From NCBI GenBank assembly GCA_003139615.1, contig PLJH01000141.1, positions 94,569 to 158,568 of the forward strand: a stretch of DNA of 64,000 nucleotides, given 5' to 3'. Shown in pieces: positions 51,022-53,178 of the stretch (its first letter is position 1; each line of letters begins with the position of its first letter). The notes below the pieces were generated by a model. It ran no database searches. It saw only the letters and a program-made list of their open reading frames with translations, and was not told the DNA's origin. A program made the translations under genes and the position numbers. Origin of the DNA: Alphaproteobacteria bacterium (GTDB taxonomy: Bacteria > Pseudomonadota > Alphaproteobacteria > Micropepsales > Micropepsaceae).

Positions 51022-52383
51022 TTACTTACTCTCTCCTTGCGTCTTTTTCTTTGCGGCTTTTTCGGCACGTTTACGGTTGCGGAATTTCTCTGCCCAGCCG
51101 GGAAGTTCCTTCTGCTCGGCGCGCGTGACGGCCAACGCATTGTCGGCCACCGCCTTCGTAATCACGCTGCCTGCCCCAACATAAACGCCGTCGCCTACTT
51201 TCACGGGCGCCACCAGCGCCGAATTCGAACCGATGAAGGCCCCCGCGCCGATATCGGTGAAATGCTTGTCGAAGCCGTCGTAATTGCAGGTGATGGTGCC
51301 CGCTCCGATATTGGCGCCGGGGCCCACGCGCGCATCGCCGATATAGGTCAGGTGGTTCGCCTTGGCGCCCTTTTCAATGCGGGCTTTCTTCACTTCCACG
51401 AAGTTCCCGATATGGACGTCTTCTTCGATGATCGCGCCGGGCCTGAGCCGCGCATAGGGGCCGACAAGCGCGCGCGTGCCCACTTCCGCGCCTTCCAGAT
51501 GTGAGAACGCCTTGATCTCCGCGCCGCTCCTGACCGTCACGCCGGGCGCAAACACGACATAGGGGCCCACCTGCACATCGGCTTCGAGCACGGTGTCGTA
51601 GCTGAGGAAGACAGTCTCCGGCGCAATCATGCCGACGCCCGCATCGAGCGCACGGGCCCGCAGGCGCTGCTGCATCGCACGCTCGGCGGATGCGAGTTCG
51701 CTTCGGCTGTTGACGCCCATCATGTCCGTTTCGTGCGCTTCGACAACGGCGCAGGAGACGCGATCCGCCTTCGCGAATGTCGGCACATCGGTCAGGTAAT
51801 ATTCGTGCTGCGCGTTTTCATTCTTCAACGCGGCCGCCCAGCGGAAAAAGTTCTTCGCATCCGCCGCCATGATGCCCGCATTGCACAGATCGACTTTACG
51901 CTCGCTCTCATTCGCATCCTTGAACTCGACGATGCGCGCGAGCATGCCGTCACGATCCACGATGGCGCGGCCATAGGCGTGGCTTGGCGAGCGAAACGCG
52001 ACGATCGCCATGCCGGCTTTTTCGCGTGCGGCAAATGACTGCTCGAACGTCTCGGCGGTCGCGAGCGGCATATCGCCATAGGCGACAACCAGCACGCCCG
52101 CGAAATCGGCGAGTGCCGACGCGGCACATGCCGCCGCGTGTCCCGTGCCGAGTTGCTCGTTCTGGATGACGGCTTCTGCGCCCTCAAGTGCCGCATAGGC
52201 GCGCACATCGTCTGCGCCGGGAGCAGTCACGACCACGATGCGCGACACGCCGGCTGCGCGCACCGCCGCGATCACATGGCCCAGGATCGGGCGGCCCGCC
52301 ACGTCATGCATCACCTTGGCCTTGGCGGATTTCATCCGCGTGCCCTGGCCGGCTGCCAGAATGATCGCCGCGCGAGCGCTCAG
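51022..52383 (-). CDS. glmU: Bifunctional GlmU, probably initiated at CTG
   Basis: 453 residues if read from CTG 52383. The first ATG (52335) would start at MKSAKAKVMH and drop the uridyltransferase loop LAAGQGTRM that is needed for UTP binding. In the CTG frame this loop falls at residues 9-17, the usual place, and AAAGG lies 8 nt before the CTG, while a TAG closes the frame just upstream and there is no ATG, GTG or TTG. Other features: EQLGTGHAA, VVAYGDMPL, and a C-terminal left-handed beta-helix with GTITCNYDGFDKH and SALVAPVKVGDG. It acetylates GlcN-1-P and then makes UDP-GlcNAc. Confidence 0.92.
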   Translation of the reverse strand: MSARAAIILAAGQGTRMKSAKAKVMHDVAGRPILGHVIAAVRAAGVSRIVVVTAPGADDVRAYAALEGAEAVIQNEQLGTGHAAACAASALADFAGVLVVAYGDMPLATAETFEQSFAAREKAGMAIVAFRSPSHAYGRAIVDRDGMLARIVEFKDANESERKVDLCNAGIMAADAKNFFRWAAALKNENAQHEYYLTDVPTFAKADRVSCAVVEAHETDMMGVNSRSELASAERAMQQRLRARALDAGVGMIAPETVFLSYDTVLEADVQVGPYVVFAPGVTVRSGAEIKAFSHLEGAEVGTRALVGPYARLRPGAIIEEDVHIGNFVEVKKARIEKGAKANHLTYIGDARVGPGANIGAGTITCNYDGFDKHFTDIGAGAFIGSNSALVAPVKVGDGVYVGAGSVITKAVADNALAVTRAEQKELPGWAEKFRNRKRAEKAAKKKTQGESK

Positions 52384-52512
52384 AGGCTAAACCTTTCTTC
52401 CGCGTGCTTGGGGCCTTTGCGATAACCTGCTAGCACAGCACGACAAAATGACGATTTGCGACCGTATATTGCCACAAAACCGCCGCGTCCGGCGAAGCTT
52501 AGCAGCAGCACC

Positions 52513-53178
52513 GTGAACACAAGTTTCATTTTCGATCTCGATGGAACGCTGGTCGATACCGCGCCCGATCTTTTGGGCGCGCTGAATGCCGTTCTCCTGC
52601 GCGAAGGCCGGCCCGCCGTGGACATCACCGATCTGCGCCATCTGGTGGGGCATGGCGCGCGCGCGATGCTGGCCGAGGCGATGACAATGACGGGCGCGCC
52701 CGCCGAACCCGATCGCCTTTCCGGAATGTTCGACGATTTCATCGTCCACTACCGCGCGCATATCGCCGACGAGAGCCGGATATTTCCGAGTGTCGAGGCG
52801 ACGCTCGCGCAGCTTGCGCAAGATGGCGCGCGGCTCGGCGTTCTCACCAACAAGCCGCAGGAACTGAGCAACAAGCTGCTCGCGGAACTCGATCTCACGA
52901 AATACTTCACGGCTATTCACGGCGCGGGGCGCTATCCCTATTCCAAGCCCGATGCGCGCGTGTTCTATCACGTGATCGACGAACTCGGCGGCACGTACGG
53001 CGACAGCATCATGATCGGCGACAGCATCACCGATGTGGCGACCGCGCGCGCAGCGGGCGCGCCGGTCATCGTCGTGACCTATGGCTACACGCCCGAGCCC
53101 GCACATCTTCTGGGTGGAGACGCCGTGACGGATCATTTTGCGGACGTGCCCGCGCTGGCGAAGCGTTTGTTGGGGTAG
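52513..53178 (+). CDS. gph: HAD hydrolase, phosphoglycolate phosphatase-like
   Basis: 221 residues from GTG 52513, chosen because the family begins directly with FIFDLDGTLVDTAPDL; a TTG at 52456 would add 19 unrelated residues. HAD motifs: DLDGTLVDT (nucleophile Asp), VLTNK, KPDARVF and IGDSITDVATARAAG (acidic metal site). Cap domain of the Gph type (VGHGARAMLAEAM). Removes phosphate from phosphoglycolate or similar small phosphates. Divergent from glmU. Confidence 0.87.
   Translation: MNTSFIFDLDGTLVDTAPDLLGALNAVLLREGRPAVDITDLRHLVGHGARAMLAEAMTMTGAPAEPDRLSGMFDDFIVHYRAHIADESRIFPSVEATLAQLAQDGARLGVLTNKPQELSNKLLAELDLTKYFTAIHGAGRYPYSKPDARVFYHVIDELGGTYGDSIMIGDSITDVATARAAGAPVIVVTYGYTPEPAHLLGGDAVTDHFADVPALAKRLLG

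Follow-up and report, generated by a model that had tools for sequence, protein, structure and literature searches.

CUG is a rare start codon in bacteria. It accounts for 0.024% of bacterial initiation codons and in E. coli the output from CUG is 0.86% of that from AUG, as both figures are cited in PMC11497404, and among close relatives ancestral AUG starts were found switched to CUG in 2 of 61,358 cases (PMC5622118). A noncanonical start with a regulatory effect is that of sigR in Streptomyces, where, according to PMC5472188, the GTC start was shown experimentally to lead to repression by IF3. Our literature search on bacterial CTG starts in essential genes found nothing direct. Here we analyze glmU in a window of 64,000 nucleotides, by which we mean the whole stretch of alphaproteobacterial DNA that was analyzed, and we think it probable that this gene has a natural, lineage-specific CTG start that replaced an ancestral ATG by a change of one base. 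The features around the start are as follows.

51022-52383, minus strand: coding sequence of glmU with the CTG taken as its start, 453 amino acids (assigned from NCBIfam GlmU equivalogs, solved GlmU structures and its single copy)
52333-52362, minus strand: ILAAGQGTRM nucleotide-binding loop, with the first in-frame ATG (52335-52333) at its end
52381-52383, minus strand: CTG where relatives have their ATG start (from the alignment with relatives)
52387-52389, minus strand: TAG stop that shuts the glmU frame upstream
52392-52396, minus strand: AAAGG, Shine-Dalgarno-like, 8 nt ahead of the CTG (from sequence and duplex energy)

As assembled, the minus strand from 52400 to 52330 reads ...GCGGAAGAAAGGTTTAGCCT CTG AGC GCT CGC GCG GCG ATC ATT CTG GCA GCC GGC CAG GGC ACG CGG ATG. 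In the glmU frame the TAG (52389-52387) is followed by CCT, by the CTG (52383-52381) and further on by ATG 52335 (translation LSARAAIILAAGQGTRM), and after the TAG this frame encodes P L S A R A A I I L A A G Q G T R M. When ORFs are called mechanically, glmU begins at ATG 52335 and the LAAGQGTR stretch is dropped. The sequence-only reading had stated that the frame is closed just above the CTG with no ATG, GTG or TTG and that AAAGG lies 8 nt ahead of the CTG. Both statements were borne out, since AAAGG is seen at 52396-52392 and a check of all frames from 52428 to 52336, that is, from the -10-like element to the first ATG, found no ATG, GTG or TTG. A frameshift concealing an upstream ATG was thereby ruled out. 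The near-cognate codons in this interval are CTG 52383, ATC 52365, ATT 52362 and CTG 52359, along with an out-of-frame ATC at 52423.

The product is the bifunctional GlcNAc-1-P uridyltransferase/GlcN-1-P acetyltransferase because it scores far over the cut-offs of the NCBIfam GlmU equivalogs. The CTG-started protein scored 626 bits with PRK14353 (cut-off 505 bits), where residues 4-447 matched from profile position 6, and 474 bits with TIGR01173 (cut-off 367 bits), whereas the ATG-started version matched PRK14353 only from profile position 19, at 600 bits. Solved full-length GlmU chains align to the CTG-started protein from residues 2-6 onward and through residues 426-448, and the C-terminal left-handed beta-helix acetyltransferase domain is thus present. 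The protein has the GlmU loop pattern L-x2-G-x-G-T-x-M, as LAAGQGTRM, only when it is translated from a start upstream of 52335. It had been claimed that the first ATG costs the nucleotide-binding loop and that homology continues upstream of this ATG, and both are correct: ATG 52335 follows LAAGQGTR, the PRK14353 match loses its N-terminal profile positions, and the homology, which is not due to chance, covers the whole loop, with the CTG aligned to the ATG of relatives. A start at ATG 52335, the first canonical start, would mean that the uridyltransferase is lost and that UDP-GlcNAc comes from another enzyme. This is extremely improbable because the 16 codons preceding this ATG encode the conserved GlmU loop and the genome has no second full-length GlmU-like gene, only weak partial nucleotidyltransferase or acyltransferase-like matches. 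No departure was found in the window's GlmU at any column that is invariant among the other congeners and there was no frameshift; the gene therefore looks normally constrained and its consensus clean.

The sequence-only reading had named the codon in relatives as a point to check. We searched for glmU in 60 further genomes, 36 of them from the same genus, with 80 loci from named genome contigs, and took as the start codon the nearest ATG at least 5 codons before the loop, otherwise GTG or TTG. Among 98 distinct glmU loci the start was ATG in 94, TTG in 3, GTG in 1 and CTG in none. All 35 of the high-scoring distinct relatives, at roughly the genus level, had ATG, and CTG was found in the window alone. 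Relatives thus have ATG at the place of the CTG, and TTG or GTG occurs in a few distant ones. Four loci, L045, L060, L082 and L110, are more distant alphaproteobacterial glmU genes whose only candidate starts ahead of the loop are GTG or TTG. The closest relative among the genomes searched (L005/L035), whose GlmU is 76% identical to that of the window, has ATG ACC GCG CGG GCG GGA ATC ATT CTG where the window has CTG AGC GCT CGC GCG GCG ATC ATT CTG. The CTG is aligned to the ATG of this relative (LSARAAIILAAG versus MTARAGIILAAG) with a single A-to-C difference, and upstream the two are collinear, with GCAGGTTATCGCAAA in common and a distance of 37 nt between TTATC and the start codon in both. 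That relatives' starts fall exactly at the CTG position also bears on the alternative of a non-canonical start elsewhere, at AUC 52365 or AUU 52362, which would give MILAAGQGTRM or MLAAGQGTRM. Either codon would keep the loop and AUU is a known natural start, that of infC. We nevertheless hold this to be very improbable, because there is also no Shine-Dalgarno sequence at a suitable distance from these codons (the preceding stretch is AGCGCTCGCGCGGCG). As had been proposed, the CTG is a better start than any other in the assembled sequence, since it occupies the relatives' ATG position and no canonical start is compatible with the conserved N terminus.

Upstream of the start the following features were recognized.

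52420-52425, minus strand: predicted -10 element TTATCG (from conservation; most congeners have it too, with an offset of 28 relative to the CGTCAYTTT block)
52442-52447, minus strand: predicted -35 element TTTGTC within the conserved block CGTCATTTTGTC (from conservation)
52513-53178, plus strand: divergent gene, HAD-type and phosphoglycolate phosphatase-like, likely GTG start at 52513 (named from reading its sequence)

The divergent gene and glmU have a common intergenic region, and the conserved block between them looks like a promoter. In most congeners the block, CGTCAYTTTRCC, lies 28 nt upstream of TTATC, CTATC or TTACC, and block and TTATC-type element together resemble a -35/-10 pair (TTTRCC, a spacer of 16-17, TTATCS). 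Between 52420 and 52480 of the window (minus strand) and in loci L005-L033, GCAATATAGCGTCGCAAATCGTCAYTTTRCC is strongly conserved and the offset to TTATC is constant at 28. The distance from the -10-like element to the glmU ATG is 7-11 nt in many congeners, a spacing that suggests leaderless or nearly leaderless glmU mRNAs. In the window and in L005, L009, L014, L021-L023 and L037 the start is 37-66 nt downstream of this element and therefore a leader with a Shine-Dalgarno sequence is expected in them. Since glmU is present in single copy, its protein is clean and the promoter-like region is conserved, translation of an intact enzyme has to begin upstream of the loop, and for this the CTG is the only good candidate. 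The duplex energy of AAAGG, calculated with an assumed anti-Shine-Dalgarno tail CACCUCCUUU because the 16S 3' end of this genome was not found, was -4.8 kcal/mol. The Shine-Dalgarno sequence was stronger in 16 of 29 congeners, and there is thus no sign of compensation for a weak start codon. A stronger, compensating Shine-Dalgarno sequence was dropped as an explanation because the strength in the window is the median for the genus.

We surveyed 349 kb of the same genome through 207 ORFs picked by codon bias, some of which are shadow ORFs. When these were ordered by how far a coding-like extension reached above the first canonical start, glmU came 14th. This survey, which has low power, turned up no second convincing case of a CTG start. 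The higher-scoring flagged ORFs that were scanned with NCBIfam or Pfam had either no family hit or a match beginning at or after a canonical start, with the exception of a contig end that looks misjoined (L127). General CTG use in this genome does not look to be the case, and the test is a weak one. In L127, which is on contig C70, positions 1-230 misfit the gene for an FAD-subunit dehydrogenase, whose profile match begins from position 134 of 280 at residue 37, and this suggests a misjoin or a frameshift at the start of the contig. As to the translation machinery, the gene for IF3 is present once in the genome. The exact 16S 3' end pattern GGATCACCTCCTT was not found in the genome, and no initiator tRNA was recognized in the draft, where its anticodon-stem pattern occurs at four places, none of them called a tRNA by ARAGORN. 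In Alphaproteobacteria the rRNA operon often carries tRNA-fMet, and it is probably missing from this draft.

The most serious alternative, a sequencing error of the kind that the sequence-only reading had also named, is that the true codon is ATG (or GTG or TTG) and that one base was miscalled in the consensus or assembly. The difference is of one base, precisely where it is most consequential, every close relative has ATG, the assembly is a draft of 142 contigs, and in it the start of another contig, L127, does not fit the gene adjoining. Against this, the rest of glmU has neither odd residues at invariant columns nor a frameshift, and within its contig of 172,549 bases the site lies about 25 kb in from the closer end. 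From typical short-read consensus error rates we estimate that a random error at exactly this base is about as rare as natural CUG starts, or rarer. When this estimate is set against the published CUG rates, a real CTG is favored, and we regard a miscalled base as unlikely, although less so than the other alternatives. Counting against a real CTG are the low CUG output in E. coli, which would be a severe cost in an essential gene, the unstrengthened Shine-Dalgarno sequence, the CTG not being shared by relatives, the lack of a second convincing case in the 349 kb surveyed, and the draft state of the assembly, in which no 16S 3' end was recognized.

If the CTG start is natural, the ancestral glmU ATG would have become CTG in this lineage via one A-to-C substitution. 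Transcription would begin from the genus-conserved predicted promoter, whose -10-like element is about 37 nt upstream, and give an mRNA with a short leader; the ribosome would bind AAAGG and make an ordinary Shine-Dalgarno-led start at CUG, where initiator fMet-tRNA would pair weakly at the first codon position. The resulting protein, MSARAAIILAAG..., would include the full nucleotide-binding loop, and the yield of GlmU would be lower than from AUG. We infer that the CTG is present in the living genome, that this promoter is used and that initiation takes place at CUG with such a reduced yield. It had also been suggested that the CTG could throttle UDP-GlcNAc synthesis and this remains unsupported. 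In this form the CUG start would keep GlmU low and sensitive to initiation factors, as a recent translational valve of one species on the UDP-GlcNAc supply. We consider it quite improbable: a regulated noncanonical start of the infC or sigR type would be expected to recur as such among relatives, and here the genus-level relatives all have ATG. The Shine-Dalgarno sequence, too, is of median strength for the genus.

A gene finder limited to ATG, GTG and TTG will call this GlmU too short, with the catalytic loop missing. A real CTG would show that an essential single-copy gene can keep working on a start that is among the weakest of the near-cognates, and would offer a natural test of the importance of start-codon strength. 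An erroneous CTG would be a warning about draft genomes.

In comparison with known systems, the gene is like GlmU of Alphaproteobacteria (PRK14353, TIGR01173) in the whole protein, the loop, both domains and glmS following it, and it differs in the start codon only. With sigR (PMC5472188) it has in common a noncanonical start that gene finders miss and an expected lower output; in sigR the IF3 repression is experimental, whereas for glmU such regulation would be conjecture and relatives in the genus do not have its CTG. The likeness to the rare natural CUG starts of bacteria is that of a Shine-Dalgarno-led near-cognate codon with a first-position mismatch and of an isolated replacement of AUG (PMC5622118), but here the gene is that of an essential enzyme and initiation at its CUG is a prediction. 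A CTG start of glmU would be something rare that is already known in bacteria, and no new system.
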